Positions 1 through 13,845 of a stretch of 64,000 nt of DNA are shown here, one piece after another (the stretch's first letter is position 1; every line of letters starts with the position of its first letter). A program made the position numbers and the translations under genes. Origin of the DNA: Burkholderiales bacterium 67-32. Lineage in GTDB: Bacteria > Pseudomonadota > Gammaproteobacteria > Burkholderiales > Burkholderiaceae_B. The notes beneath the pieces were generated by a model. That model did no database searches. It had not been told where the DNA came from and saw nothing but the letters and a program-made list of their open reading frames with translations. The DNA is taken from NCBI GenBank assembly GCA_001898625.1, contig MKUP01000025.1, forward strand, positions 1 to 64,000, given 5' to 3'.

Positions 1-452
1 GAGACCATTGCGGTATGCCATGTTTCTAATGCCCGGCCACATAAGAAAACAGGGCACATAACGCCCATTATGTTCCGCGCCACATAATGCACCAGCATCA
101 CGGCCGCGGCGTTGTATCGAAGCACCAGCTTGAGCACTTCGCGTGGATAGGCCTGTGCCTGATTGAGCGTGCCACGGAACGGTTCCAGGTAAGTGATCAG
201 GTGCATGCGGGTATCGAGCAGAATCAGCCCGCACACTTCGTGCTCCAAGCCAGCCAGACGCAGTTGCAGGAAGTTCCTGACCATGTCCGGCTTGCTCAGA
301 TTCTTGCCGCGCAGTTTGTCGACGGTGACCAGTTCGCGCGCCACGGCCAGGATCTCCGTGCGCTGCGCGGGCCGCACCGCGCCGCCGGGTTCGCGTACCA
401 GCAGTGCGCCGGCCAGATTGGGGTCGCTATCGATGAAGAGGGAATATTGCAT
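1..452 (-). pseudogene. RadC-like JAB-domain protein, C-terminus lost at an insertion junction
   Basis: Not a complete gene. The frame from ATG at 452-450 begins MQYSLFIDSDPNLAGALLVR and reads as the RadC-like protein common in integrative elements (N-terminal part of a JAB/MPN domain, ending in VMLVH at about residue 122). A family member would continue with NHPSG and a downstream Asp, which complete the JAMM metal site. Here the codon after that His (89-87) leads into unrelated sequence (YVARNIMGVMCPVF) that stays open to the window edge. The metal site is therefore incomplete and the protein probably inactive. The foreign part begins at a cluster of CACATAA motifs. Whether the rest of the gene lies beyond the window edge cannot be seen. 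Upstream is the 286-bp repeat module. Confidence 0.7.
36..87. repeat. Cluster of CACATAA motifs at a mobile-element end
   Basis: GCCACATAA occurs at 36-44 and 79-87, and CACATAA also at 55-61. ACATAA (56-61) and TTATGT (68-73) form a 6-bp inverted repeat around a 6-bp spacer. The cluster sits exactly where the radC-like reading frame loses homology. Spaced direct and inverted short motifs are typical recombinase or transposase binding sites at an element end. The type of element is unknown because its coding part lies outside the window. Confidence 0.45.
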
Positions 453-473
453 GACGGCCTCCGATTCGGAATC

Positions 474-759
474 GGGCGGAATTGCCCGGAACCGAAGGGG
501 CACGGCGCAGCGCAAGCGGTCAGGGGTCGCAGACGGCCGCCAGGCCGCAAGCGCCTTGGCGCGCCGCCCTTGACGGCGAGAACGGCGTGACACACTAACC
601 GGATAGCAAGGCCTCCAACTCTTCAAAAGCAGATGACAGCGGTTGTTAAGCCAGCGCAGCGCGCAGGCGTCAGCGATGCGCAAGGCGGCGCAGCATGTCC
701 CGCAAGGGATGAGCGGATAGCGAACCTGGAGAACCGCGTCCCCGCTTTGGCCGGGAGAC
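474..759 (+). repeat. 286-bp intergenic module, copy 1
   Basis: This copy matches 5575-5860 along its whole length, from the shared GGGCGGAATTGCCCG to the shared CCGGGAGAC. A 34-bp identical block lies at 705-738 (copy 2: 5807-5840) and a 20-bp block at 669-688 (copy 2: 5770-5789). Both copies lie immediately upstream of a minus-strand island gene (radC-like here, the cysteine-rich protein in copy 2). The module probably holds a shared promoter or leader; a non-coding RNA or recombination segment is also possible. Confidence 0.7.
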
Positions 760-979
760 GCGAGCACACATCAGTAGGAAATAGCGCGAAGCAGCATCGT
801 CAACAGGATCTAGGTGGCAGTTGCACTAGGCCACACGATGACGCGACAATAGGTACGCGCCGGCAGCTAGCCTTTTCCGCCTCCGCCCATCCTGGGCATG
901 GAAGACCTGCCATTACCTCTCGACCCCCGATTTTTCCTGGGCTGCCGATAAGAACGGAGGCACTTATCCACGATGCAGC
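760..979. other. Non-coding stretch upstream of the Cys-rich island gene
   Basis: About 220 bp between the repeat module and the hairpin before the 999 gene. An open frame runs through it from 633, but that frame has no supporting ribosome site and reads as low-quality sequence. I see no conserved protein or RNA here. It probably carries the promoter of the 999 gene. Confidence 0.4.
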
Positions 980-998
980 CCGAATTGGAGAAATTCGG
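980..998 (+). promoter_or_regulatory. Hairpin presenting the ribosome binding site of the 999 gene
   Basis: CCGAATT (980-986) and AATTCGG (992-998) form a perfect 7-bp inverted repeat. The 5-nt loop is GGAGA, the ribosome binding site, and the ATG follows directly at 999. The fold could modulate translation or form an operator half-site pair. It also supports 999 as the start. Confidence 0.4.
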
Positions 999-1544
999 AT
1001 GGATACACTTACCCTGACAATCCCGTCGCGCACCGCGATGGCGCGCAAGCTCGCTGAAGCGTTTCGCTCCTATGGCGTAGAACTGCGTCACGCCGAAGCG
1101 ACCCGCGTGCTCGCCACCGTGCTAGGCGAAAACGAACACACGCTGGCCGCCAAACTGGATCAAACACGCACTTCCCCTGGAAATGCGTTCATGCGAGAGG
1201 GACGCGGCTTGGAACAGGCGAGATTGCTCCAAGCGCTCGTCAAGGCCAGACTCGAACTTGCGGTGCAAGTCCCTGCGTTGGGCGGGGTGCGTACATGTGT
1301 CGCCACCGCTGAGCAGGCATTGCGCCTGCTGGAAGACAAAGACGCGGTCTATGGGGAACTGGTGGGCCTGAGTAAGCCCGACTACATCGAGTGGCAGTCC
1401 AGCAACGGTAGTGTTTATTGCTGCGCCCGCACGAAGGTCGGGAAACAATGCCGCAACCCGGTCAGTGGAGGAACGTGGCTGGAGCCCCCTGCGTGGAAAG
1501 CCTTGCATGATGCTAAGGGCTACTGCGCCATACACGGCGGCTAA
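999..1544 (+). CDS. Island protein with C-terminal Cys-rich HGG tail
   Basis: 181 residues, function unknown. The start is chosen because GGAG at 987-990 is 8 nt upstream; an upstream extension to 633 has no such site. The N-terminal ~50 residues (ARKLAEAFRSYGVELRHAEA...) resemble the small helical domain often fused to glyoxalase-superfamily and mobile-element proteins. A related segment opens the next gene, at 3242. The C-terminus has a cysteine-rich pattern (YCCARTKVGKQCRNP ... GYCAIHGG) that looks like a compact zinc-binding knuckle seen in phage and ICE proteins. It sits convergent to the 1608-3242 gene. A DNA-binding or accessory role in the element is a guess. Confidence 0.6.
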   Translation: MDTLTLTIPSRTAMARKLAEAFRSYGVELRHAEATRVLATVLGENEHTLAAKLDQTRTSPGNAFMREGRGLEQARLLQALVKARLELAVQVPALGGVRTCVATAEQALRLLEDKDAVYGELVGLSKPDYIEWQSSNGSVYCCARTKVGKQCRNPVSGGTWLEPPAWKALHDAKGYCAIHGG

Positions 1545-1607
1545 CCTTCGAGCCGTCGCAGCGCCTCCATGCTGCGGTAGCCCACACGGGCTACCGCAAG
1601 TCTGCTA

Positions 1608-3242
1608 TTACGAATGCGCAGCCGCAGGTTTCCCGCCTGAACCTGCGGGTTGCCACAGCGCCAGCGTCGTCGCATCCCGATGATCCACACTCAGTATCAA
1701 GGTATTCAAGGGGACAAATTGCTGCTTACCCTCGGCGTCGTGGGAGAGATTGACAAAACGGATGTCGCGCCCGGCGATCAGGAATAGGCCTGCTTGTCGC
1801 ATATCGTTCAGGATGTCATCGAGCGATTGCACCAATGCGATCTCCGAGCGGCCCGTGTTTCCCCCTTCCATGTCGGCACGCATGGCCAGGATTTCCAGAA
1901 GGTCGATGCAGTTCTGCAATTGAACCCGAACGTCTGGGAGCAGTGCCGGTGACACAGAGTCGCCTATCACCGAACCGTAGCTCTGCGCCCCCGTCGCCAT
2001 GCGCAGCAGCCGCTCTCCGTTTTCCACCTCGAAAGCCAGCGTCTCTTGCGTTTCCTTCAATAAGCCCGCCGGCGTCAAGGCCAGAGCAGCAGCCATCTTC
2101 AACACTAGTTCCGCATCCGCCATTTCGTAGTCCCGCAGACGGAAGATGTCGCGGTACGACACGCCAACGGTGCGCGCCAGTTCCGCTATCGACATCTCGC
2201 GTTGCTGTAGCTGCGTGTTTAGTTTTTCGTAATCGACCTTCACCACCCAGTCCTTGGCATCGCTGCCTTGGGCGATCGACTGAAAAGCACTGGTGACGGA
2301 ACCTGGCAAGGCATGGCGCCAACGCAAGAAGCGTCGCAACTCCTGCCTTGCCTCTTCCAGCGTATAAACGTCCGCCTGGCTATCCGCACCGGCGCTGTCT
2401 ATCCATACCCGCTCCACATCGAAGCTGTCATTAGCACCCACAAACCGCGGCGCGCCATGTACCTGTTCGACAGAGGTGCAGGCAATCGAATCGAGCATCA
2501 GGAACAACTCGCGTTCATCGGTAATGATGCGCTGCAGCGACCCCGTCAAACTCGTCAATTTCCACACCGCATAGTTGCAAGGGCCAAGTCGTTCCGATAG
2601 GGCACCGTGTATGACCAGCGTCCCCGGTCGCGCCTGCTCGATGTTGTCCACAATCCGCGCCAAGGCCCGCCGCAGTTGGGTTTCGTCGAATGACGTGGCG
2701 ACGATCCATCCTGGCGTTCCGGCGTGGTGCTTGGTCATCGCCACGATGGCTATGGAGAACCAAGGTCCATTGGCCTGGCTGACTTCCAGAAGAACGGATT
2801 GAGGAGTGCGCTTGAGTGCGCAGAACGCGGGTTCCGCGCGCGTTGGGATGAGATCGATGGCCTTGCGAAGCATCGCCGAAGCGGCATCGGCAACGGAGTC
2901 CAGCAACTCACCGCCCTGGACCACACCTTCAATCGTAGTCTGGAGAAGATAGACACAATCAGTGTGCTGGATGGAGGCGACTTTAGCGCGCATCCAACTG
3001 GCATAGCCTTCGAGCTTAGCCACCAGCTCCAAGACATGCGTGTGCTTCAGTTCGATATGGGCGGTCGCCAAGGCGTCCTTGAGGCTCCGGGCTCGGCGCT
3101 TCATGTTGGTCGTGCGCTGCAAATCAGCGGCGTCGAGAATGCGCGCAGCCGTTCCGAGATCAAGCGTGACGACCCGATCGGCAAGGTAACGAACGAGGAT
3201 GGTTGCGGAGGACTCCGCGGATGAAGAGAATGGACGTGCCAT
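1608..3242 (-). CDS. Large island protein with internal XRE-type helix-turn-helix
   Basis: 544 residues from ATG 3242, preceded by GGAG with 9 nt spacing; a TTG at 3251 overlaps that site and is less likely. Residues ~35-90 repeat the helical domain of the neighbouring 999 gene (ARSLKDALATAHIELKHTHV...). A central alpha/beta region of ~230 residues is not recognised. Residues ~338-385 form an XRE-like helix-turn-helix (MSIAELARTVGVSYRDIFRL) with a following helix. The remaining ~160 residues are unassigned. It may be a regulator or a stress-related cargo protein. It is divergent from the SEFIR gene across a 334-bp gap. Confidence 0.6.
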   Translation of the reverse strand: MARPFSSSAESSATILVRYLADRVVTLDLGTAARILDAADLQRTTNMKRRARSLKDALATAHIELKHTHVLELVAKLEGYASWMRAKVASIQHTDCVYLLQTTIEGVVQGGELLDSVADAASAMLRKAIDLIPTRAEPAFCALKRTPQSVLLEVSQANGPWFSIAIVAMTKHHAGTPGWIVATSFDETQLRRALARIVDNIEQARPGTLVIHGALSERLGPCNYAVWKLTSLTGSLQRIITDERELFLMLDSIACTSVEQVHGAPRFVGANDSFDVERVWIDSAGADSQADVYTLEEARQELRRFLRWRHALPGSVTSAFQSIAQGSDAKDWVVKVDYEKLNTQLQQREMSIAELARTVGVSYRDIFRLRDYEMADAELVLKMAAALALTPAGLLKETQETLAFEVENGERLLRMATGAQSYGSVIGDSVSPALLPDVRVQLQNCIDLLEILAMRADMEGGNTGRSEIALVQSLDDILNDMRQAGLFLIAGRDIRFVNLSHDAEGKQQFVPLNTLILSVDHRDATTLALWQPAGSGGKPAAAHS

Positions 3243-3576
3243 AGTGGCCAACTCCGATGGTTAAGCTCACGTCAGGCTGGTTGATGGTGCCGCGCGTTAC
3301 CGGATCGCCTGATGTGGGCAAACACGGGGTTGGTCATGCTATGGCCGGGTGGCCTACGCCGGATTTGCCGTACCGCCGTGGCGGCTACGCGACTGACAGG
3401 CTCCGGGGTGCCTTGCTAATTATCTAAGCACATCCCTCCAAAGAAATCAAGATTGTAAGGACACGCCAATCAGTTGATGACTGGTGCCACTGGCGCGTGA
3501 GTCCGAAGTCCACCTATGTTTTGCTAGGTTAACCCTAGTGCACAATGTGGCATCTCGCATTCTTGGAGGAGGCATC
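3243..3576. other. 334-bp gap between divergent genes
   Basis: This gap separates the minus-strand HTH protein from the plus-strand SEFIR gene and must contain both promoters. Composition shifts from GC-rich to AT-richer near 3410, which may mark a join between cargo segments. I see no gene, tRNA or clear operator in it. Confidence 0.4.
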
Positions 3577-5007
3577 GTGTCGCAAACTGCCGAAGATTTT
3601 CGCCCCAAGGTTTTCATTTCCTATTCGTGGACCAGTCTCGACCACCAGCGGTGGGTGCTTGACGTAGCCAAGCGTTTGACTGAGGCGAACGTGCATGCGC
3701 TCTTGGATATCTGGGACCTGCAGCCTGGCGCTGACTCTATCCACTTCATGGAGCGCATGGTTAACGATCCGAGTGTCCAAAAAGTCTTGATTCTTGCCGA
3801 TGAAAAGTATGTCGCCAAAGCAAATGACCGTGAAGGTGGCGTTGGCACGGAAACGCAGATCATCTCGCCTGAGCTGTACAGCCAAACGGACGCAGGAAAG
3901 TTTGTTCTTGTTGTCTGCGAGCGAGATGAAAAGGGAAGGCCGTATTTACCAACGTACTACAAGTCCAAAATCTACATCGATCTGAGCGATGAGGGCCGCT
4001 ACGCCGAAGAATTCGAAAAGCTATTGCGGTGGATATACGACAAGCCGGCGGAGGTGAGGCCTGCCTTCGGCGCAACTCCTTCTTTCCTTCAGGAGAATTC
4101 GGCGACGGACCTGGGCACGGCGATGTACGCCCGACGAGCTATGGAGGCGATGCGCTCTGGTAAGCCACAAGCCTTAGGCTCATTCATCGAGTACTTAGAC
4201 GTGCTGGCGCGGCACCTTGAACGACTGCGTATCACTAGAGAGTCTGGCAAAGAGTTCGACGAACAGGTGGTCGAGTCCTTTGTGTCGTTCAAGCCATTTC
4301 GAGACGAGTTCTTGGAGGTGTTAAGGGTCGTTATGACGCATTCGCAGGATCTCGAAATGGGTAGGGTTCTTCATCGCTTTTTTGAGCAGATTTACAACTA
4401 CAACGAACGGCCGTACGACTACATAGGGTCCTACCGATCTACCGACTTTGACAACTTTCGACTTGTGTGTCGCGAACTATTCCTGCTGACGAACTCGCTT
4501 GCGCTCAAGCTTCAACGCCTAGATGTTGTGCATACGCTACTCGAGCAGGACTACTACATCACGGTCGCAGACGGAAGGCAGACCATGTATTCGTTTGGGG
4601 TGATGGCGAGGGAAGTAGAGTCGATGGACCACAGGAGGCGTCGTCTGTCCTCTGATCGAGCAAATCTAATTGCTGACATGCTACTAAATAGGGCAAATGG
4701 CTCTTTTGTCACCCGAGATGACGTTCTACAGGCAGACTTCGTTTTACATCTTCGCTCCCGCCTAACCGGGCAGCGTCATTGGCATCCGGCTACACACGTA
4801 TTTGCAGGTGGAATACACCGAGCCTTTGAGGTCTTTGCGCGTTCCTCGTCGCGGGCTTTTTTTGCGAAGCTCGCGCCAATACTTGGTGTCGACGACGTAG
4901 AGAGGCTTAAGGTTTTTGTGGAACAAATGGGGCAGTACGGCCAGGGTTTCAACTCAGGAGATGCCAAGTTACTGACTGGCTTCGATGAGCTTTGCACTCG
5001 AGCATAG
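3577..5007 (+). CDS. SEFIR/TIR-like domain protein
   Basis: 476 residues from GTG 3577, with GGAGGAGG at 3565-3572; an upstream GTG at 3484 lacks such a site. Residues ~10-160 form a SEFIR domain, a TIR relative: strand KVFISYSWTS, then DIWDLQPGAD, KVLILADEKY, a Glu-containing GVGTETQIIS loop near residue 90, and LPTYYKSKIYIDLSD. The remaining ~310 residues are mostly helical with no recognised domain. Bacterial TIR/SEFIR proteins are usually immune sensors or NAD-directed effectors that act by abortive infection. That role is inferred here from the family and from the island context. Codon use is AT-richer than in the core genes. It appears to stand alone. Confidence 0.75.
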   Translation: MSQTAEDFRPKVFISYSWTSLDHQRWVLDVAKRLTEANVHALLDIWDLQPGADSIHFMERMVNDPSVQKVLILADEKYVAKANDREGGVGTETQIISPELYSQTDAGKFVLVVCERDEKGRPYLPTYYKSKIYIDLSDEGRYAEEFEKLLRWIYDKPAEVRPAFGATPSFLQENSATDLGTAMYARRAMEAMRSGKPQALGSFIEYLDVLARHLERLRITRESGKEFDEQVVESFVSFKPFRDEFLEVLRVVMTHSQDLEMGRVLHRFFEQIYNYNERPYDYIGSYRSTDFDNFRLVCRELFLLTNSLALKLQRLDVVHTLLEQDYYITVADGRQTMYSFGVMAREVESMDHRRRRLSSDRANLIADMLLNRANGSFVTRDDVLQADFVLHLRSRLTGQRHWHPATHVFAGGIHRAFEVFARSSSRAFFAKLAPILGVDDVERLKVFVEQMGQYGQGFNSGDAKLLTGFDELCTRA

Positions 5008-5574: not shown

Positions 5575-5860
5575 GGGCGGAATTGCCCGAGACCGAAGAC
5601 GCACGGCGCAGCGCAGCAGTCAGGGGGAGAAGACGGCCGCCAGGCCGCAAGCGCGCAAGGCGCGTGCAGCCCTTGACGCGCGAGCACGCCGTGGCACGAT
5701 GGGAAAACAGCAAGGCCGCTTACTCTCCAACAGCAGATGACCCCGGGGTCGGCACGCCAACGCGCCCGTGTCAGCGATGCGCAAGGCGGGCATGGCCCGT
5801 CCCGTCAGGGATGAGCGGATAGCGAACCTGGAGAACCGCGGCCCGGCCTGGCCGGGAGAC
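5575..5860 (+). repeat. 286-bp intergenic module, copy 2
   Basis: Second copy of the module at 474-759, with the same ends and an equal span. Long identical blocks lie at 5770-5789 and 5807-5840. It lies between the minus-strand cysteine-rich gene (start 5556) and the plus-strand membrane protein gene (start 5940), so it could serve as a bidirectional promoter region. It accounts for most of this 383-bp gene gap. Confidence 0.7.
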
Positions 5861-6284: not shown

Positions 6285-6392
6285 TACACAGCGGTTCCTA
6301 CGCCGCACTAAGATCCAACGCGCCCTGTCCGGTTGAGCGCCTGACCCGAGCTGCGCACCATCAAAGCCATGCCGATACGCATGGAGACGGAC

Positions 6393-6641
6393 ATGGTGGT
6401 AACGAGACAGGACAGTGCCGCAACCAGCTTTCAGCCGGCCTTCTACCGCATGCGCGACATCATACGCATCACGTCGCTGAGCCGCCCAACCTTGTACCGC
6501 CGTATTGCGGCGCGCCGATTTCCGGCGCCCGTCAAACTCGGCGGGCGAGCCAGCGGCTGGCCCGCGGAATCGATCCAGGCGTGGATTGCCGATCCGGCAG
6601 GCTACGTAGCCACCGAGCCGCCCGCGCTGCCAGAACCCTAG
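6393..6641 (+). CDS. AlpA-family excision/transcription regulator
   Basis: 82 residues from ATG 6393, chosen because GGAG at 6383-6386 has 6 nt spacing; in-frame ATGs at 6369 and 6381 are less well placed. The core (MRDIIRITSLSRPTLYRRIA ... FPAPVKLGG ... GWPAESIQAWI) is the MerR-like winged helix of the AlpA/phage excisionase family. Such proteins bind DNA and activate integrase or promote excision of integrated elements. No integrase is visible in the window, so the gene it may control lies elsewhere. Its presence supports reading this region as an integrated element. Confidence 0.85.
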   Translation: MVVTRQDSAATSFQPAFYRMRDIIRITSLSRPTLYRRIAARRFPAPVKLGGRASGWPAESIQAWIADPAGYVATEPPALPEP

Positions 6642-6745: not shown

Positions 6746-7651
6746 ATGAACCCGTGGCCCGAGTTCCTAGCGAACAAACCCGTCGATACTCGTATCGAAA
6801 TGGGTGCCTACGAGTATCTGTGGCAGCAGCCCAACTCCAACACAAAGCGGCTGGCCGAACTGTTCGAGTTCCACCCCGGCAGCCTGCCGTCCGACCTGGT
6901 GGACGAGGACGCTGCCCAGCGGGCCGCCGAGGAAGTCGTCGGGCACCTCGCCAAGCGGGGCATCAAACGTTTCGGCGTGCGCATCAACGGCATGCACGAC
7001 TACCCGGCCCGGCTGCGCGACGCCACCGAGCCGGTGGAAATGCTGTACTTCCTCGGTTCCTGGGAACTGGCCGAGTCACCGCGACGTGTGGCCGTGGTCG
7101 GCACCCGCCAAGTCAGCAGCGAAGGCGCGGCACGCACGCGCAAGCTTGTGCGCGCCCTGGTCGAACACGACTTCACCATCGTGTCGGGTCTGGCACAAGG
7201 CGTCGATACGATCGCCCATCAGACTGCCATTGACTGCGGCGGACGCACCATCGCCGTCATCGGCACCCCCATCTCCGAGGTCTACCCGAAGGAAAACGCC
7301 GAGCTGCAGCGGCGCATCGCCAGCGGCTACCTGCTGGTCAGCCAAGTGCCCGTGCTGCGCTACAAGGCTCAAGGCGCGAACGTGAATCGCTTCTTCTTCC
7401 CTGAGCGCAACAAGACGATGTCGGCGCTCTCCGAGGCCACCATCATCATCGAGGCCGGCGAAACATCGGGCACGCTGACGCAGGCGCGCGCCGCGCTCGC
7501 CCAGGGCCGCAAGCTATTCATCCTGGAAAGCAACTTCCGGAATCCCGCAATCAGCTGGCCGGCGAAGTTCGAAAAGCAAGGCGCCATCCGAGTGCGGGAG
7601 GTCGAAGACATCCTGCGCGAATTCGAGGACGTGCCGCACGCCCACGCATGA
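6746..7651 (+). CDS. DprA/Smf-like Rossmann protein of a PRTase-linked pair
   Basis: 301 residues; GGGAG lies about 7 nt before ATG 6746. Residues ~113-262 form a DprA/Smf Rossmann domain: RVAVVGTRQVSSEG, IVSGLAQGVDTIAH (~145-158), YPKENAEL, FFPERNKTMSALSE (~217-230) and IIIEAGETSGTLTQARAA. The first ~110 residues are a helical pre-domain. The C-terminal winged helix of housekeeping DprA is missing. Housekeeping DprA loads RecA on single-stranded DNA. Here the gene is translationally coupled (ATGA overlap) to a PRTase in an island, behind a LexA-like site. A defence or DNA-damage role, sensing ssDNA or a nucleotide ligand, is more likely than transformation. That role is inferred. Confidence 0.85.
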   Translation: MNPWPEFLANKPVDTRIEMGAYEYLWQQPNSNTKRLAELFEFHPGSLPSDLVDEDAAQRAAEEVVGHLAKRGIKRFGVRINGMHDYPARLRDATEPVEMLYFLGSWELAESPRRVAVVGTRQVSSEGAARTRKLVRALVEHDFTIVSGLAQGVDTIAHQTAIDCGGRTIAVIGTPISEVYPKENAELQRRIASGYLLVSQVPVLRYKAQGANVNRFFFPERNKTMSALSEATIIIEAGETSGTLTQARAALAQGRKLFILESNFRNPAISWPAKFEKQGAIRVREVEDILREFEDVPHAHA

Positions 7652-8337
7652 ACATGCCGCCCCGCCTGACGGTGGTGGGCGAGCAGGAGCGGCCGGACCA
7701 CTGGTATCTCCCCGCTGATGCCCAGTGCTTCTTCTGGGGCGAGTACACGCCCTACGAACACACTCAGGGCAAGCGGTGGAATTTCTCGGCCACCAACCAG
7801 CTCATCGCCAACTTCAAGAAAGGCGTGGACCGGCGCGACCGGCCCGACTGGCACTACAAGCAGCAAGCGATCTGTCAGGTTGCCACGGCGTTTTCCCGGT
7901 TCTGGAAGTGGGCCGACACACACCAGAATCATCGCCTGGCCCTGATACCCATTCCCCCTTCGAAGCCACGCCACAACCCGCTATATGACACCCGCATGGT
8001 GGACATGCTCAATCAGCTCGCCCAACTGGTAGATCTACCGCTCGACATTCGCGACTGCTTGAGCTTCAGCGGGGCAAATGCTGCGAGCCACGAAACCGCC
8101 GAACGTCCATCACCCGATGAACTCCAAGCCGACCTTAGCTTCGACGAGGCCGCAGGACGGCGAGTGCAGCCCCCCACTGTGGTTTTCCTGTTCGACGACA
8201 TGCTGACCACGGGCGCGCACTATGTGGCAGCAGCCCGCAAACTGACCGACGCCTATCCCGGCACTCAGATCATCGGCAACTTCGTCGCTCGGCGACTGAT
8301 TCCCGATCCGTTTGATGATTCCCGTATCGGTTCATGA
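7648..8337 (+). CDS. Phosphoribosyltransferase-domain partner of DprA-like protein
   Basis: 229 residues, starting inside the stop of the DprA-like gene (ATGA at 7648-7651). It has a type I phosphoribosyltransferase core. LALIPIPPSK (~97-106) resembles the first PRPP-site loop. VVFLFDDMLTTGAHY (~178-192) is the PRPP-binding signature, with acidic pair D183-D184 and TTG. No base-specific hood identifies a substrate; ComF-like proteins share this look. The first ~80 residues (aromatic-rich, W and Y) are unassigned. The strict coupling suggests a complex or sequential action with the DprA-like protein, perhaps making or removing a nucleotide signal. That is inference. Confidence 0.8.
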   Translation: MNMPPRLTVVGEQERPDHWYLPADAQCFFWGEYTPYEHTQGKRWNFSATNQLIANFKKGVDRRDRPDWHYKQQAICQVATAFSRFWKWADTHQNHRLALIPIPPSKPRHNPLYDTRMVDMLNQLAQLVDLPLDIRDCLSFSGANAASHETAERPSPDELQADLSFDEAAGRRVQPPTVVFLFDDMLTTGAHYVAAARKLTDAYPGTQIIGNFVARRLIPDPFDDSRIGS

Positions 8338-8681
8338 AAAGAAGTGTTCGTAACACGATCAAGGTGATTATGATAGTCCATACACGGACCCGCCAGACAA
8401 GTAACATGCCAGCCCCAGGTTTCGCCATGCCCGCGGGGAAGACACCGGCGTAAGATTCGGCATCAGCTAACTCTTTGCCGAACGGGAACGTTTAAGGGCA
8501 AACCAAATGTTGCCTACTTGTAAGCGATAATGGCAATCATAGGTTGCCCAGTCCACACCAACGCCCGCGCTTTGGCGTTCGACGCGATTTTTAAGAGATA
8601 GGCAATAGTAATGCGCATAATGGTGATGAAGAGGCGAGCTAGCAGAATGGCCGCTGGAGTTCAGCCTCTGAAGGGACGCAT
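8338..8681. other. 344-bp gap upstream of the GHKL/PRTase operon
   Basis: No gene is visible. The stretch becomes AT-richer toward the GHKL gene and ends with AAGGGA as ribosome site. It should carry that operon's promoter. I find no LexA-like site here, so the two PRTase operons do not visibly share that signal. Confidence 0.4.
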
Positions 8682-9812
8682 ATGACTTCCATTCGGATTC
8701 AGGAGAGAACGTCTATCGACGAAGTCCTTGCTTGGCGAGTAGCTCAGTGCACCGTGATCTCTGTAGGCAGAAGAAGCGGCTTCGAACCGGGTGCGCAAGG
8801 ATTGGCTTTAGCCGCGCTCGCGTCGATGCGGCCAGGCCGAAACGCGCCCTGTCTTGAATGCGATTTTGATGAACCTAAAACTCTTGACGATCTCGAGTCG
8901 ACTTTTTTTGGGAACGCCGTTGGCTTTGCGTTACCTCGTTTAATATCCAACCTTCAATTTCAGAAGGTTCCGGCTTCGCGTGAATTCAAGCGACTACTGG
9001 GTGAACTCTACAAGGACAGACGCGGGATTCTGGGATCAGGCCGTAGCAAGACAATTGTGTGTGCTGATCCAGTCTTTCCCATCCCTCCTTGTCTCGCGCT
9101 GCAAGGGACTCCCACCACTACCTTCCCAACGCCGTCGGCGTTTTCGAGTCTCATTAATGCCGAAGTGGAAAAGATGGGATTTCGCCACATGCTAGCCTCG
9201 ACGGGTGAGTCGGATGTTATCTCGTTTGTTTATGAGTCACTTCGCAACAGTTGGGAGCACGGTATTTCGCTAGATCCGCCACGGCGCGCCCGCAGTACAC
9301 GGGCGTTAATCATTGAAAAGATCGTTTTGCAAAAAACAGACCTAGCGTCACGGCAGCTATCACCTGAGCTCAAGGATTATTTAGCCCGCATTGTCGAAGC
9401 AAACCATGACGATCTTGGGCTCGGTGTTATATGCTTTTCGGTCGCGGATCAAGGGGATGGCATTCAGGCAACACTTCCAGCCAAAACTGATTACCCGAAT
9501 GAGACCCGTGCCGAGCGTTTGGCGAGGGCCTTTGTTCCCGGGGAGAGCCGTAAACCGGCTGGCGTAGTCAAGCGCGGGCTCGGGTTGGCGAATATTATTT
9601 CAGCAGCGCATAGTCTTCAGGCGTTGCTACGCATCAGTTCGGGGGATCTCGTCGCGTCGCAGGACTTCTCGTACGGCGAGGATAAGTATCCCCAACTTAA
9701 ACTCGACTCGATCCGCCAACTTCCCGATATGGCACCGCGCGGTACATGTATATCGATTTTTATACCGGAATTCGCTTTTGATCTGGATCAGCATAGTCTC
9801 TTTCCCCGTTGA
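8682..9812 (+). CDS. GHKL-type ATPase paired with a large PRTase protein
   Basis: 376 residues. The C-terminal half has the ATP-binding boxes of the GHKL fold (Hsp90, MutL, histidine kinases, MORC). The N box is YESLRNSWEHG at ~184-194, with Glu185 and Asn189. The G1 box is VADQGDGI (~254-261), the G2 box RGLGLANI (~298-305), and the closing strand GTCISIFIP (~354-362). There is no phospho-acceptor His domain, so it is probably an ATP-gated switch rather than a kinase. The N-terminal ~165 residues are not recognised and may be the sensor. The gene is 14 bp upstream of the double-PRTase gene and shares its AT-rich composition. The pairing suggests a two-component effector/sensor system. Confidence 0.8.
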   Translation: MTSIRIQERTSIDEVLAWRVAQCTVISVGRRSGFEPGAQGLALAALASMRPGRNAPCLECDFDEPKTLDDLESTFFGNAVGFALPRLISNLQFQKVPASREFKRLLGELYKDRRGILGSGRSKTIVCADPVFPIPPCLALQGTPTTTFPTPSAFSSLINAEVEKMGFRHMLASTGESDVISFVYESLRNSWEHGISLDPPRRARSTRALIIEKIVLQKTDLASRQLSPELKDYLARIVEANHDDLGLGVICFSVADQGDGIQATLPAKTDYPNETRAERLARAFVPGESRKPAGVVKRGLGLANIISAAHSLQALLRISSGDLVASQDFSYGEDKYPQLKLDSIRQLPDMAPRGTCISIFIPEFAFDLDQHSLFPR

Positions 9813-9826
9813 TGACATAAAAAATC

Positions 9827-12034
9827 ATGATTCTCGCTTTCAGCGACATCATCGCCGAGACGTCCGCAGACTTTGATCATGCCGTAGCGCAAATTGAAAG
9901 TACAAACTTGCGCCAGGCGGAAGGTATCGTGCTCCGAGCTCATGCGTCGTTATGGCGTCGCATTAAGAAAAATGATTTCAACGTCGAATTGCTTAAACCA
10001 GATCTGGATGCTGTCGGGCGCCGAGCACCTGGATTGGATATTTATTTACTTCCCGATGCACATAGCCTCGCTGAGCACTGGGTTGTCGGATCAGGGGCAC
10101 AGCCGCCTATCCGACTTATTGACGGTGCGAGCGGGGCGATATCATTGGCAATGGTCAATGCCGAATGCCGAAACGATATCCGCATTGCCGAGTTAAGAGA
10201 ACTATTCGAGTCTTTTCAAGGGCGTTGCGTTATCTGTGCAAGTGAAAACCATCATTTTGCATTACCGTCTGGCGCGCATTCTACTCAGTTTGTTCGGCTT
10301 GGCGATGCGTTTGCCAGCATTGACGTCATAGATCGGATTGCATACTGGGTTGCGATGGAAATCCAGTCGAAGCCTGAGATTCTTGAGCGGAACGGGCGTC
10401 ATACCATATTTGTTGATCATCCCAGCATGCTCGTTCTGGCGGCACGAATCCAGCGATTGGTAGACGTACCTATAAACATAGTGGCATTTCCCACCTATCC
10501 GTCGGATATCCAATCACGAAACGCCTCGTTTGAAATGCTGCGAAAACAAGCAGCTGATTGTGCATCTGTGCTCGTCGTAATAGGAGTTGCATCAACTGGG
10601 CGCTTAGCTAACTTTATTCAGCGATGGGCTGAAACAGAATATCCCCATGCGTTAAGCGTCATCGTCCTCTATGCACTGCAAGAGCTTCAGGCCACATCCG
10701 TGCTCTGCAGGCTTGACTTAAAGGGCTACAGGCACTTTAGCAATGAGGATGGCTGTGAACTATGCGCCGCACATAGCTCCGCTGTACAGATCCATACGTC
10801 GAGCTATCTCGTCGGCCTCCAACCAGGTGAAGCAGTTCCTCTCATACCGAGACACTTTCATAGTCAGCGGGATTTTTTGCAGCGGTGGGGGGAAGTTCCA
10901 GGGGTACTTCGCGTCCATTACGACGATCCAAACGAAGCAACTGGCCGGCATCACGCTTTCTACATTGATGTAAGTTCCTTACTGGATGCCCCCGGATTTC
11001 AGGGGGAGCTTATCGCGGCCATTGGCCGCTTCGACCCCGAACCAGAGGTGATTGTCATTCCCGATCACCCGACAGCTCGCAAGCTTGGCGATATCCTGCA
11101 TGGATTTCTTGCAAAGCCGCTAGTAGTCCTCGACGAAAAACTTATTGCGAGAGGAGAAGGTCCGATTGACGAGAACCTTCGATTAGCGCAGTGTGCTTTG
11201 ATTATTGATGACATCTTCATTACAGGCTCAAGGCTCGAAAGCATAAATCGATTCCTGCGGGAACGATATGCCGAAAGGTGTCCCAGCCTAGCAACCATTC
11301 ACTACTGGACCGTGTTGGCGACGCCTTCATCTTCAGCCAATTATGAGCGTGTCGTGAGAGGGATAACGCAAAATCATGGCTGGTCCTCAACTGTGTCGCA
11401 TCTGCAAGAAATTCCTTTACCCGACTGGCATCGCACCGGCGATTGCCCATGGTGTATGGAGAGGAATGTTCTATCTGGTTTAGCTCAATCTGCGGTGGAA
11501 TTCGACGGAAAGATCGCTGATCGACTTGCGTCGTTGTCAGCAACGGATCAGGGGATAGTTTCGGCTCCATTCGTAGATAGTGGCGCTGCTATCCCGCTGC
11601 TTGGCGCACAGTCGGTAGCGCTCGCGCCGGGTTCTAGCGCCATGCAAGTTTTATTCGCCTGCGCAAGCGCTACTCAGCAACTACGAAATGCTCCTGAAAA
11701 TGCTCTAAATGCTGATCTGTTTCCTACACCGAGATATATAGCCAGACGTGTCTTTGAAACTAATTACACCGAGCGACTGATATGGCTGGCGCTTCTCAGG
11801 TCTTTGAAGGGCAAGGAATTAGATCCGGCGCTTAAGGCCTTTCTTGCAGCCACCGCGTTAAATTCGCAAGATGCACAACGTGGGATCGTCTTAGGTGAGC
11901 TTGCCGTCGCTTGGCTTACAGGAAAACTTGGATCTATACCCGTTTCGGAACCCTGTCGTGATTTTTTTTCCAGTGTCGGTATTTCATGGGAGGCGCTGTA
12001 CGCGAAAGCGTTCGTTGATCGTTACCCGCAATAG
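9827..12034 (+). CDS. 735-residue protein with two PRTase-like halves and CxxC knuckles
   Basis: A phosphoribosyltransferase core is clear at residues ~405-500: VIVIPDHPTARKL, then CALIIDDIFITGSRL with D461-D462 and TGS. An earlier segment repeats the same order: TIFVDHPSMLVLAA (~193-206), then VLVVIGVASTGRL (~248-260). There Ile-Gly replaces the acidic pair, so this copy is probably non-catalytic. Each half is followed by a CxxC (C310/C313 in GCELC; C540/C543 in DCPWC) preceded by His, possibly binding zinc. The protein thus looks like an internal duplication with one degenerate copy. The C-terminal ~180 residues are helical. The partner is the GHKL ATPase. The substrate is unknown; a nucleotide-signal or immune role is inferred from context. 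Confidence 0.8.
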   Translation: MILAFSDIIAETSADFDHAVAQIESTNLRQAEGIVLRAHASLWRRIKKNDFNVELLKPDLDAVGRRAPGLDIYLLPDAHSLAEHWVVGSGAQPPIRLIDGASGAISLAMVNAECRNDIRIAELRELFESFQGRCVICASENHHFALPSGAHSTQFVRLGDAFASIDVIDRIAYWVAMEIQSKPEILERNGRHTIFVDHPSMLVLAARIQRLVDVPINIVAFPTYPSDIQSRNASFEMLRKQAADCASVLVVIGVASTGRLANFIQRWAETEYPHALSVIVLYALQELQATSVLCRLDLKGYRHFSNEDGCELCAAHSSAVQIHTSSYLVGLQPGEAVPLIPRHFHSQRDFLQRWGEVPGVLRVHYDDPNEATGRHHAFYIDVSSLLDAPGFQGELIAAIGRFDPEPEVIVIPDHPTARKLGDILHGFLAKPLVVLDEKLIARGEGPIDENLRLAQCALIIDDIFITGSRLESINRFLRERYAERCPSLATIHYWTVLATPSSSANYERVVRGITQNHGWSSTVSHLQEIPLPDWHRTGDCPWCMERNVLSGLAQSAVEFDGKIADRLASLSATDQGIVSAPFVDSGAAIPLLGAQSVALAPGSSAMQVLFACASATQQLRNAPENALNADLFPTPRYIARRVFETNYTERLIWLALLRSLKGKELDPALKAFLAATALNSQDAQRGIVLGELAVAWLTGKLGSIPVSEPCRDFFSSVGISWEALYAKAFVDRYPQ

Positions 12035-12166: not shown

Positions 12167-12763
12167 TTAAGACTTGTCTATGCCATTGGTTACTCTTGTT
12201 TGACGAGTCATAGGCGCCGCAACAGCGGCGATGCGAAAGAAACGCCGATCCTCCTGCGTCAATGGGTCGCCATAAAAGAGCTTTTCCACCAAGTCAAGCA
12301 GGTCAGATGCTACGCCATGCTCGATACCTGCGTCTTGCATACGGCGAATGTCGTTGGCATCTTCATCTTCTATCCGGGTCGCACTACGTGGCACAGGAAC
12401 ATCGGCTACTGCTTCACGGATACCTTCCTGAACATCGACTAAGAATTGGGCGGCCTCTTCATCAAGCACAGTATTACGAACAGCCAACTCCATCAAAACG
12501 GCTAAGGTGCCCCGAAACCAGTCGATCTCCGTGCCTACAAGAGGTATCGCATGGACATGCGCGATGTAGCGCACTGCGTGAGCAATGACCATATCAGTCT
12601 CACGCTGTTTCCTAACGAAGTCCTGGTGCTCCTCTGCAACGACTAAGTATTTTCCAGCTAACGTTTCCACGACATCATTGGAGGCAGTCCCATTGCGCCA
12701 TAGAACTTGGCGGGCAACAGCCTTACAAGCACTAAACAACTCTGTTTCTAACGGTGCGGTCAT
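12167..12763 (-). CDS. Hypothetical cargo protein, mostly helical
   Basis: 198 residues if started at ATG 12763. The frame extends upstream to a GTG at 12928 and an ATG at 12901, none with a convincing ribosome site, so the start is uncertain. The predicted chain is helical and acidic toward the C-terminus, with no recognisable domain, signal peptide or membrane segment. It is convergent with the PRTase gene and is the last gene before the island edge. Its AT-rich composition matches the cargo rather than the pilus genes that follow. It could be a third component or an unrelated passenger. Confidence 0.5.
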   Translation of the reverse strand: MTAPLETELFSACKAVARQVLWRNGTASNDVVETLAGKYLVVAEEHQDFVRKQRETDMVIAHAVRYIAHVHAIPLVGTEIDWFRGTLAVLMELAVRNTVLDEEAAQFLVDVQEGIREAVADVPVPRSATRIEDEDANDIRRMQDAGIEHGVASDLLDLVEKLFYGDPLTQEDRRFFRIAAVAAPMTRQTRVTNGIDKS

Positions 12764-12978
12764 GGTGCGAAACCTATGGTCGAAGAGGGGCCAATACTGT
12801 TGATGTGAAGCACCAAGTCTAGCCGAGGCGGTCGACAAAAATCGGAGTGTTGCGACAAACGACAAAGCTAAAGTTCGCTGACGAATAGTCGTCGCAAACA
12901 TGTCCCTAAATCTGACCCTATAGATCACTTAGCCAAAAAAACTTCAATTGAATCAATAAGATAGATCATTGACAAATA

Positions 12979-13845
12979 CTAGCGGTAATAGCAGCCTATC
13001 CATCGATTGGACCGCAGCGCGTGGAAGGACAGCGTATCGACCGACCGCCAGGCATCCAGTCCCATGAGCGCGGTCGCCCCCCGGCGCCGCAGCTCGTGCC
13101 TCAGCCAGGGGCACCGCCATTCCGTTGGCAACAGGCTGCGGCGATCGTGATCGCGCGGCGCGAGGAAGCCGTAGTGCGCATTGGCCTCCTCCACCATGTC
13201 CTTGAGCCGGCCCCGGGACGCGCCGCCATGCCGGACCACGAACCCCGGAAGCGTATCGGCCAGCAGGGCCGTGTCCAGATGCGCCGCGTCATCGTCATAG
13301 TGGGCGGCCAGCACGGCCTGCATCGAGTGCAGACGGGTATCGGCCAGCGATTGCTGCACGGCCGCCTGTGCCCGCACCAGGACGTCATGCACGACACGAT
13401 CGTGTTCGGCGAAGGCCCGCGCCAGCGCGCCATCCCCCCAGCCTGCGGCGCCACCCGCTCCGGCCGCGCCCGCGGCGCCGCGGTAGGCCTGGCCATGCGC
13501 GGCGCCGAACAAACCGCCAATGAGGCTGGCGGGCGGATTGGAAGACGCCAGCCGGCGGGCCTGCGTATCGCCGAACCGGGCCCACGAGGCCAGCGTGATG
13601 GCATGCGCCATGCCCACCTGGTGGGCCACCAGTGCGCGATTGGCATAGGCAAGGAAATTCAGGCTCCGCGCCTGGACCAGCGCGCCGCTATAGGCCGCCG
13701 CGTCCAGCGCGCGGGCTAACCGGGCCTTTTCGCGCAGCAGTTGCCCGCCGTCGAACAACTGCACCAACCCTGCCGCCACGGCGGCGAGCAGCGCCACCGC
13801 CAGCACCAGCGCCTGTCCGGCCTGCGAGCGATCCGCGGTGCGCAT
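12979..13845 (-). pseudogene. TadG-like pilus assembly protein, truncated at the island edge
   Basis: The 288-residue frame begins MRTADRSQAGQALVLAVALL, a TadE/TadG-type N-terminal membrane helix. It continues with the DAAAYSGALVQARSLNFLAY region of TadG-like pilus assembly proteins, which anchor in the inner membrane and project into the periplasm. It ends abruptly after NRWIGCYYR at a TAG that coincides with the switch from GC-rich host DNA to AT-rich island DNA (12,930-12,980). Family members are usually longer, so I infer loss of the C-terminal part by island insertion or rearrangement. It abuts the upstream pilin-like gene directly. Confidence 0.6.

Follow-up and report, generated by a model that had tools for sequence, protein, structure and literature searches.

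The first 12 kb of a contig from Burkholderiales bacterium 67-32 carry two neighbouring gene pairs, one coding for a DprA-like protein and a phosphoribosyltransferase (PRTase), the other for a GHKL ATPase and a 735-amino-acid (aa) protein with PRTase signatures, which raises the question of whether the two pairs act together and what the second pair does. The window, that is, the whole 64,000-nucleotide stretch analysed here (C25:1-64000, contig MKUP01000025.1), belongs to a 6.66 Mb genome congeneric with Pigmentiphaga humi. An earlier note on this DNA had proposed that the four genes form one locus that makes or consumes a nucleotide-like signal. Our analysis instead separates them, and we put at about even the chance that the GHKL/tandem-PRTase operon is an ATP-switched abortive-infection pair independent of its neighbour ShosTA, a role in defence that is read from genomic context.

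The GHKL and PRTase-like genes form a constant pair

Four open reading frames (ORFs), all on the + strand, make up the two pairs described earlier: 6746-7651, 7648-8337, 8682-9812 and 9827-12034. In the second pair, the GHKL gene and the gene for the 735-aa protein lie 14 nt apart. The GHKL gene was found upstream of the PRTase-like gene on the same strand in all 24 collected loci (19/19 aligned and 5/5 found later), so that the predicted constant pairing held throughout. The 19 aligned loci, the window included, were taken from plasmids and genomes, each locus being distinct and holding a PRTase-like gene of full or nearly full length; they span Alpha-, Beta- and Gammaproteobacteria, metagenome-assembled genomes (MAGs) titled Mariprofundaceae and Lambdaproteobacteria, and one Bacteroidota plasmid (Spirosoma). 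Fragments (L046, L031 of G914, H44, H45 and H46) were dropped before counting, the weak match in G877 was set aside, and L008 and L030 (duplicates of L034) and L032 (P. humi, the same island as in the window) were removed. The two genes overlap or are separated by no more than 14 nt in 17 of the 19 loci, the exceptions being B. ambifaria (90 nt) and Spirosoma (405 nt, with a 139-aa ORF in between).

The first pair proved to be a predicted copy of a known system. The DprA-like protein (6746-7651, +) matched the PADLOC ShosA model at 4.2e-108 over residues 16-293 and Pfam DNA_processg_A at 8e-58, and the PRTase (7648-8337, +) matched PADLOC ShosT at 8.5e-40; the two genes overlap by the ATGA at 7648-7651 noticed earlier. 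With both subunits, the same order, the same overlap and no difference of note, 6746-8337 is assigned by homology to ShosTA, an already known DprA/PRTase pair, and its anti-phage or toxin-antitoxin action here is predicted. A DprA/PRTase pair from P2 and P4 hotspots, likened to shosTA, protects against T7 and lambda according to the available part of PMC9122126. ShosTA is unrelated to the GHKL operon next door, from which it is separated by 344 nt. When ShosA and ShosT were searched over 22 loci of the GHKL/PRTase family (L006 and L026-L046; the search predates loci L080-L084), only L032 was positive, which is the same island in P. humi; the suggestion that the GHKL pair would sometimes sit beside DprA/PRTase genes was thus not borne out beyond this island.

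The GHKL protein retains the residues of an ATP site

The GHKL protein (376 aa; 8682-9812, +) is predicted to consist of an alpha/beta N-terminal domain of about 130 residues followed by a Bergerat fold. In its N box, ESLRNSWEHG (residues 185-194; 9234-9263, +), E185 is kept in 18/19 and N189 in 19/19 aligned members; the N box Asn, D256, G258 and G260 of the DxGxG motif, and G299 and G301 of the GxG motif are all invariant (19/19). This conservation supports the GHKL identity claimed earlier, even though Pfam is blind to the window protein, and because the residues of the ATP site are invariant, ATP binding has very likely been retained. The window protein itself had no match at 0.1 in Pfam, PADLOC or NCBIfam, while 5 of the 19 members weakly matched Pfam HATPase_c (best 0.0011). 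Structure models were built with four sequences. The GHKL model reached a mean predicted local distance difference test score (pLDDT) of 72 and found no Foldseek match at E <=0.001, the best being MprB, topoisomerase VI-B and GyrB at 0.019-0.035.

The 735-aa protein contains two orotate-PRTase-like modules, one of them degenerate

The partner (9827-12034, +) matched PADLOC PDC-M65B at 5.6e-15 over residues 126-479. We divided it into two modules and a predicted helical C-terminal domain (11507-12031, +). Module 1 (residues 110-330; 10154-10816, +) carries the hood motif FALPSGAH..F.R, a degenerate phosphoribosyl pyrophosphate (PRPP) loop, VIGVASTG, and CELC; module 2 (residues 350-560; 10874-11506, +) carries GRHHAFYID, an intact loop, LIIDDIFITG, and CPWC. 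The predicted PRPP-binding loop of module 2 lies at 11195-11230 (+), within a Pfam Pribosyltran match of 0.0039 over residues 457-520 that falls below the curated cut-off. Hood motif, PRPP loop and CxxC thus follow each other in orotate-PRTase order in each module.

The two modules differ in their predicted active sites. The acidic pair of the PRPP loop is absent from module 1 in 19/19 aligned members, and the idea of two canonical PRTase sites in the protein was rejected on this ground. The PRTase signatures reported earlier therefore hold as canonical for module 2, while module 1 is best described as a degenerate orotate-PRTase-like module, in which the CxxC is kept in 14/19 and D197 in 19/19 members. 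In module 2, the acidic pair follows a division of the family into two clades, which separate at 100/100: clade I comprises the window, an Alcanivoracaceae MAG, G068, C. necator pHG1 and a Mariprofundaceae MAG, and clade II the other 14. The pair is present in 5/5 members of clade I, the loop glycine being shifted in C. necator, and in 0/14 of clade II, one member of which keeps a single Asp; CPWC is distributed in the same way (5/5 and 0/14). The five loci found later have the acidic pair in neither loop.

Comparisons with known enzymes point to an orotate-PRTase origin. With a module 2 profile of the 19 members, 12 of the 14 PDB sequences matched at E <=1 were PRTase-fold enzymes (best 4fym, 0.0012), and module 1 gave one weak match, also to an orotate PRTase (0.091). 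In Foldseek, 40 structures matched the low-confidence model of the 735-aa protein at E <=0.001, with orotate PRTases ranked first, above PurR structures; acyl-CoA/AMP ligases, 4 of the 40, were discarded as surely spurious. Direct profile comparison was weak: hhalign of the modules against PyrE (orotate PRTase) of 10 genomes gave E 0.12 for module 1 and E 0.001 at a probability of 22% for module 2, and the two modules matched each other at E 0.0014 at a probability of only 17%. The part of the family profile covering module 1 (137-138 to 302-306) also aligned, in 13 genomes from the family of the Mariprofundaceae MAG, with free-standing ORFs of 193-212 aa; the one that was checked (L085) matched Pfam Pribosyltran at 1.7e-10, has the same motif order and, close to its end, a CPMCKQG resembling the CxxC of the modules. 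Judging from motifs, profiles and fold together, the 735-aa protein consists of two tandem orotate-PRTase-like modules, with a strong case for orotate-PRTase ancestry in module 2 and a weaker one in module 1. It differs from PyrE, whose hood motif, PRPP loop and C-terminal CxxC each module shares in order, by being a tandem, by the loss of the acidic pair in module 1, by added N-terminal and helical C-terminal domains, and by its GHKL partner.

The helical C-terminal domain is the most conserved region family-wide, with a mean pairwise identity of 26.5% against 15.6-24.6% elsewhere; inside clade I it ties with module 2. It matched no PDB sequence at E 1, and its model is of low confidence.

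The window operon is a sister clade of the defence candidate PDC-M65

PDC-M65, a phage defence candidate of PADLOC-DB 2.0.0, likewise consists of two adjacent genes. At 0.01, its A model matched 17/19 GHKL members and its B model 18/19 PRTase-like members (best 5.5e-261), so the earlier remark that the pairing is not recognisable as a named system needs amending: most members match a catalogued candidate. In the literature searched we found no paper naming PDC-M65, nor, among the matches listed, one describing the GHKL/PRTase pairing. A further PADLOC candidate, PDC-M66, is reported in the available part of PMC12548924 to be similar to a validated system. The window pair differs from PDC-M65 in its A subunit, which the PDC-M65A model did not match at E 0.1, and in the module 2 acidic pair and CPWC that the other clade lacks. 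Since the A model gave no match, we file the window operon as a sister clade of PDC-M65 and not as a member, a divergent relative, by sequence, within a wider family. This suggests that the PADLOC models miss part of the PDC-M65 family, that two orotate-PRTase units in tandem, half decayed, make up its large subunit, and that one of its clades has an intact PRPP site.

The family is rare. Counting the window's own genome, it occurs in 4/399 genomes of the order, and 398 genomes of the phylum held 7 clear members (E 1e-86 or better); among 11 genomes of the genus Pigmentiphaga, only the window genome and P. humi have it. The phylum search matched 24/398 genomes in all. The 17 matches other than the clear members were weak, fell in 16 cases on ORFs of 193-226 aa, and are taken as probable ordinary orotate PRTases, one of them (L085) having been checked. 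The PDC-M65B model, run over 299 genomes, matched 16, of which 2 were clear members and 14 were short matches. Partial copies were seen in Caballeronia, in G914 (with an internal stop) and as pieces in R. leguminosarum and Mesorhizobium. Relatives were found neither in phage records, searched with two protein queries, nor in E. coli genomes, searched with a single Pantoea DNA query; three pattern scans of viral contigs, able to pick up only close relatives, found none either. A patchy, often plasmid- or island-borne and apparently fast-evolving distribution of this kind is what defence genes habitually show. In one further locus, L084 (G1120, 554-2727), the PRTase-like gene is split into ORFs of 420 and 292 aa by a break in module 2 just ahead of the PRPP-like loop.

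Defence genes recur around the pair

Neighbours within about 9 kb of the pair were scored with PADLOC. Attributed matches were Avs1b and AbiJ_NTD3 on C. necator pHG1 (L006), QatA on P. aeruginosa pBJ86 (L043), ThsB-like TIR proteins in Rhizobium NZLR1 (L041), E1-E2, PDC-S02 and LmuA (7.6e-17) in Spirosoma (L039), a weak partial E1-E2 in A. tumefaciens (L038) and the candidate PDC-S39 in Polymorphobacter (L037). In G996 (L026), a type I methyltransferase and a specificity gene lie directly upstream, preceded by AbiEi/AbiEii, and G274 (L029) has HmaB/HmaC and a ThsA fragment. The window itself adds ShosTA and bSEFIR. Together with the transfer of the island described below, these neighbours support the defence context and mobility that the earlier note had expected.

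Across 10 plasmids, PADLOC families at 1e-10 numbered 157 for 127 neighbouring ORFs and 38 for 126 ORFs on the opposite side, a comparison that is only indicative because it tallies families and not proteins, with redundant E1-E2 and ThsB models inflating the case side, a control side made up largely of GajB helicase models from one ORF plus mad8, mad3 and AriA, and 25 families listed for each side. The tally speaks for a defence context; its limits are among several points that count against the proposed reading. At least one attributed defence match was found in 6/10 plasmid loci, with control regions not attributed gene by gene; the other four (L036, L040, L042 and L044, that is, P. dispersa, R. 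brockwellii, C. oxalaticus and P. agglomerans) had none, their ORFs having been only partly scanned singly. The single neighbour tested gave no match in L033 and matched helicase models only in G068 (L027; MkoC 1e-40). The neighbour scans left out L028, L034, L035, L045 and L080-L084; B. ambifaria (L045) was excluded from the plasmid comparison since its plasmid leaves no room for a control region. To these are added the missing match of the window GHKL protein to PDC-M65A, the poor model of the 735-aa protein (pLDDT 55), the long branches of the two-clade tree with a warning on its Mariprofundaceae row (L034), and the literature searched, in which we found no phage assay of any family member.

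In three rhizobial plasmids (L038, L040 and L041), the gene thyX immediately precedes the pair on the same strand, and dgt lies near one. A thymidylate synthase domain is among the domains validated in defence according to the available text of PMC13092281, which bears on this arrangement. As a general third gene of the system thyX was rejected: the PRTase-like proteins of the three loci are 74% identical and represent one lineage. At >=60% identity, thyX was present in 23 plasmid records, the three rhizobial ones included.

A proposed GHKL-gated mechanism and its alternatives

In the mechanism that we propose, the GHKL and PRTase-like proteins would form a complex that is held inactive. A cue from infection, either a phage DNA intermediate or an altered nucleotide pool, would work by way of the GHKL subunit, which, acting as a clamp or kinase dependent on ATP, would free the PRTase-like protein, and this in turn would arrest the cell as abortive infection. 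As a precedent, the accessible portion of PMC12137116 describes a GHKL Shedu protein whose ATPase and nuclease variants lose defence and whose GHKL ATPase domain is proposed to control the nuclease. The final act may differ between clades: in clade I, the intact module 2 may act on PRPP or a nucleotide, while in the other clade the same fold would work without the usual PRPP site, so that both would share either the binding of a ligand or a shift in conformation relayed to the conserved helical C-terminus. Since most members are without the PRPP acidic pair, the act common to the whole family is unlikely to be ordinary PRTase chemistry; the window clade may add chemistry. For the same reason, the loss of the pair from module 1 in every aligned member and from module 2 in 14/19, the nucleotide signal ascribed earlier to a double PRTase is doubtful for the family and possible for the window clade. 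A bolder version, which we regard as rather improbable, makes the window clade an unrecorded defence type, in which the GHKL switch releases a tandem orotate PRTase whose dead module 1 binds a phage- or infection-derived nucleotide and whose live module 2 consumes PRPP or makes an unusual nucleotide, halting nucleotide synthesis, the sister clade having lost the chemistry and kept the switch.

The same residues can be read in other ways. The PRTase-like modules might be PurR-like sensors of PRPP or nucleotides that read the pool of the infected cell, with the GHKL protein or the helical C-terminus doing the harm. The missing acidic pairs, the PurR structures in the Foldseek matches, and thyX and dgt near some loci are consistent with such sensing; set against them are the pair retained throughout clade I, the higher Foldseek rank of orotate PRTases on what is a poor model, and the confinement of thyX linkage to one lineage, which leave the sensor possible and somewhat doubtful. 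It is unlikely that the GHKL protein is a STAS-GHKL kinase of the CapK/VapK kind, which would sense single-stranded DNA and phosphorylate the PRTase-like partner to free it. The succession of strands and helices predicted for residues 1-130 does resemble STAS, and the N box, ExxxNxxxHG, resembles that of SpoIIAB-type kinases; the ExxxN spacing fits GyrB/MutL-type ATPases as well, which counts against such a kinase. No STAS match was found in the GHKL N-terminus, either by Pfam at E 1 in 19 members or by PDB profile, nor in the PRTase-like partner at E 1 in 19 members. The available part of PMC13373217 presents CapK and VapK as STAS-GHKL proteins of defence loci. CapK/CapS and VapKSC share with the window pair an operon linked to defence in which the GHKL protein begins with an alpha/beta domain; the window pair differs in having no STAS match, STAS partner or VapC, and a PRTase-like partner.

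If the pair were an accessory pyrimidine module with a metabolic or regulatory role and not one in defence, its orotate-PRTase ancestry and thyX neighbours would be accounted for, yet the rarity and patchiness of the family, its fast divergence and partial copies, and the repeated defence neighbours make this very improbable. Least credible is the single four-gene signalling system of the earlier note: the genes are adjacent on one strand of an island, but the gap between the pairs, the standing of ShosTA as a stand-alone pair and the lack of co-occurrence outside this island in the 22 loci searched all speak against it. Type III retrons offer another likeness, since the available text of PMC12548924 has a PRTase-like protein as a defence effector in them; the 735-aa protein matches no PADLOC retron model at 0.1, and retron RNA was not searched for. 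Returning to the ATP-switched pair, the comparison of its clades allows a direct test of whether PRTase chemistry is needed for defence or a metabolic fold has been turned into a ligand-gated switch. If the role in defence is true, an anti-phage system would have pyrimidine-nucleotide or PRPP metabolism as its candidate target or signal.

The operon lies in an island shared with Pigmentiphaga humi

The segment 91-12987 is common to P. humi, with a single mismatch (12867) across its length; the contig begins at window base 1, which places the left part of the island, its end included, outside the data. Divergence begins at 12988, to the right of which the chromosome is about 75-83% identical to that of P. 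humi (about 75-78% in the same alignment, 81-84% in further pieces). A nearly identical island beside so divergent a chromosome indicates recent movement between species. The full-length island was present in 1 of 10 other Pigmentiphaga genomes, the others holding short repeats only. It is GC-poor (50-64% against about 69%) and contains an AlpA-like regulator (6369-6641, +; Pfam Phage_AlpA 1.2e-11) as well as defence genes. Surroundings of the type of an integrative and conjugative element, as described in the earlier note, were not recovered: Pfam scans of 13 island ORFs showed no conjugation gene, and no search was aimed at a relaxase or type IV secretion system.

To the left of ShosTA lies a bSEFIR-like protein with a TIR/SEFIR domain (3484-5007, +; scanned from the ATG at 3574), which matched PADLOC bSEFIR at 2.2e-102 and Pfam TIR_2 and SEFIR; by homology it is a separate known defence gene and the third defence unit of the island. 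We regard as evenly balanced the proposition that bSEFIR, ShosTA and the GHKL/tandem-orotate-PRTase-like operon act as three separate anti-phage units of the island. Among the remaining ORFs, one of 547 aa (1608-3251, -) has weak Glyoxalase_8 and helix-turn-helix matches in Pfam and lies within the stretch identical in P. humi, and one of 253 aa at the right island end (12167-12928, -) has no meaningful Pfam, PADLOC or NCBIfam match.

Two direct repeats of about 286 bp (474-759 and 5575-5860, about 80% alike, seen via the P. humi locus L032) bracket 4.8 kb and are possibly cargo boundaries; parts of these repeats also occur at other places in Pigmentiphaga genomes. A second copy of window positions 13-3451, 78% identical, occupies positions 1-3396 of another contig of the same genome (C31), likewise at the contig start. 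The 35-bp stretch at 33-67 is found again (91%) close to where contigs C8 and C9 start, and this recurrence may explain the assembly break.

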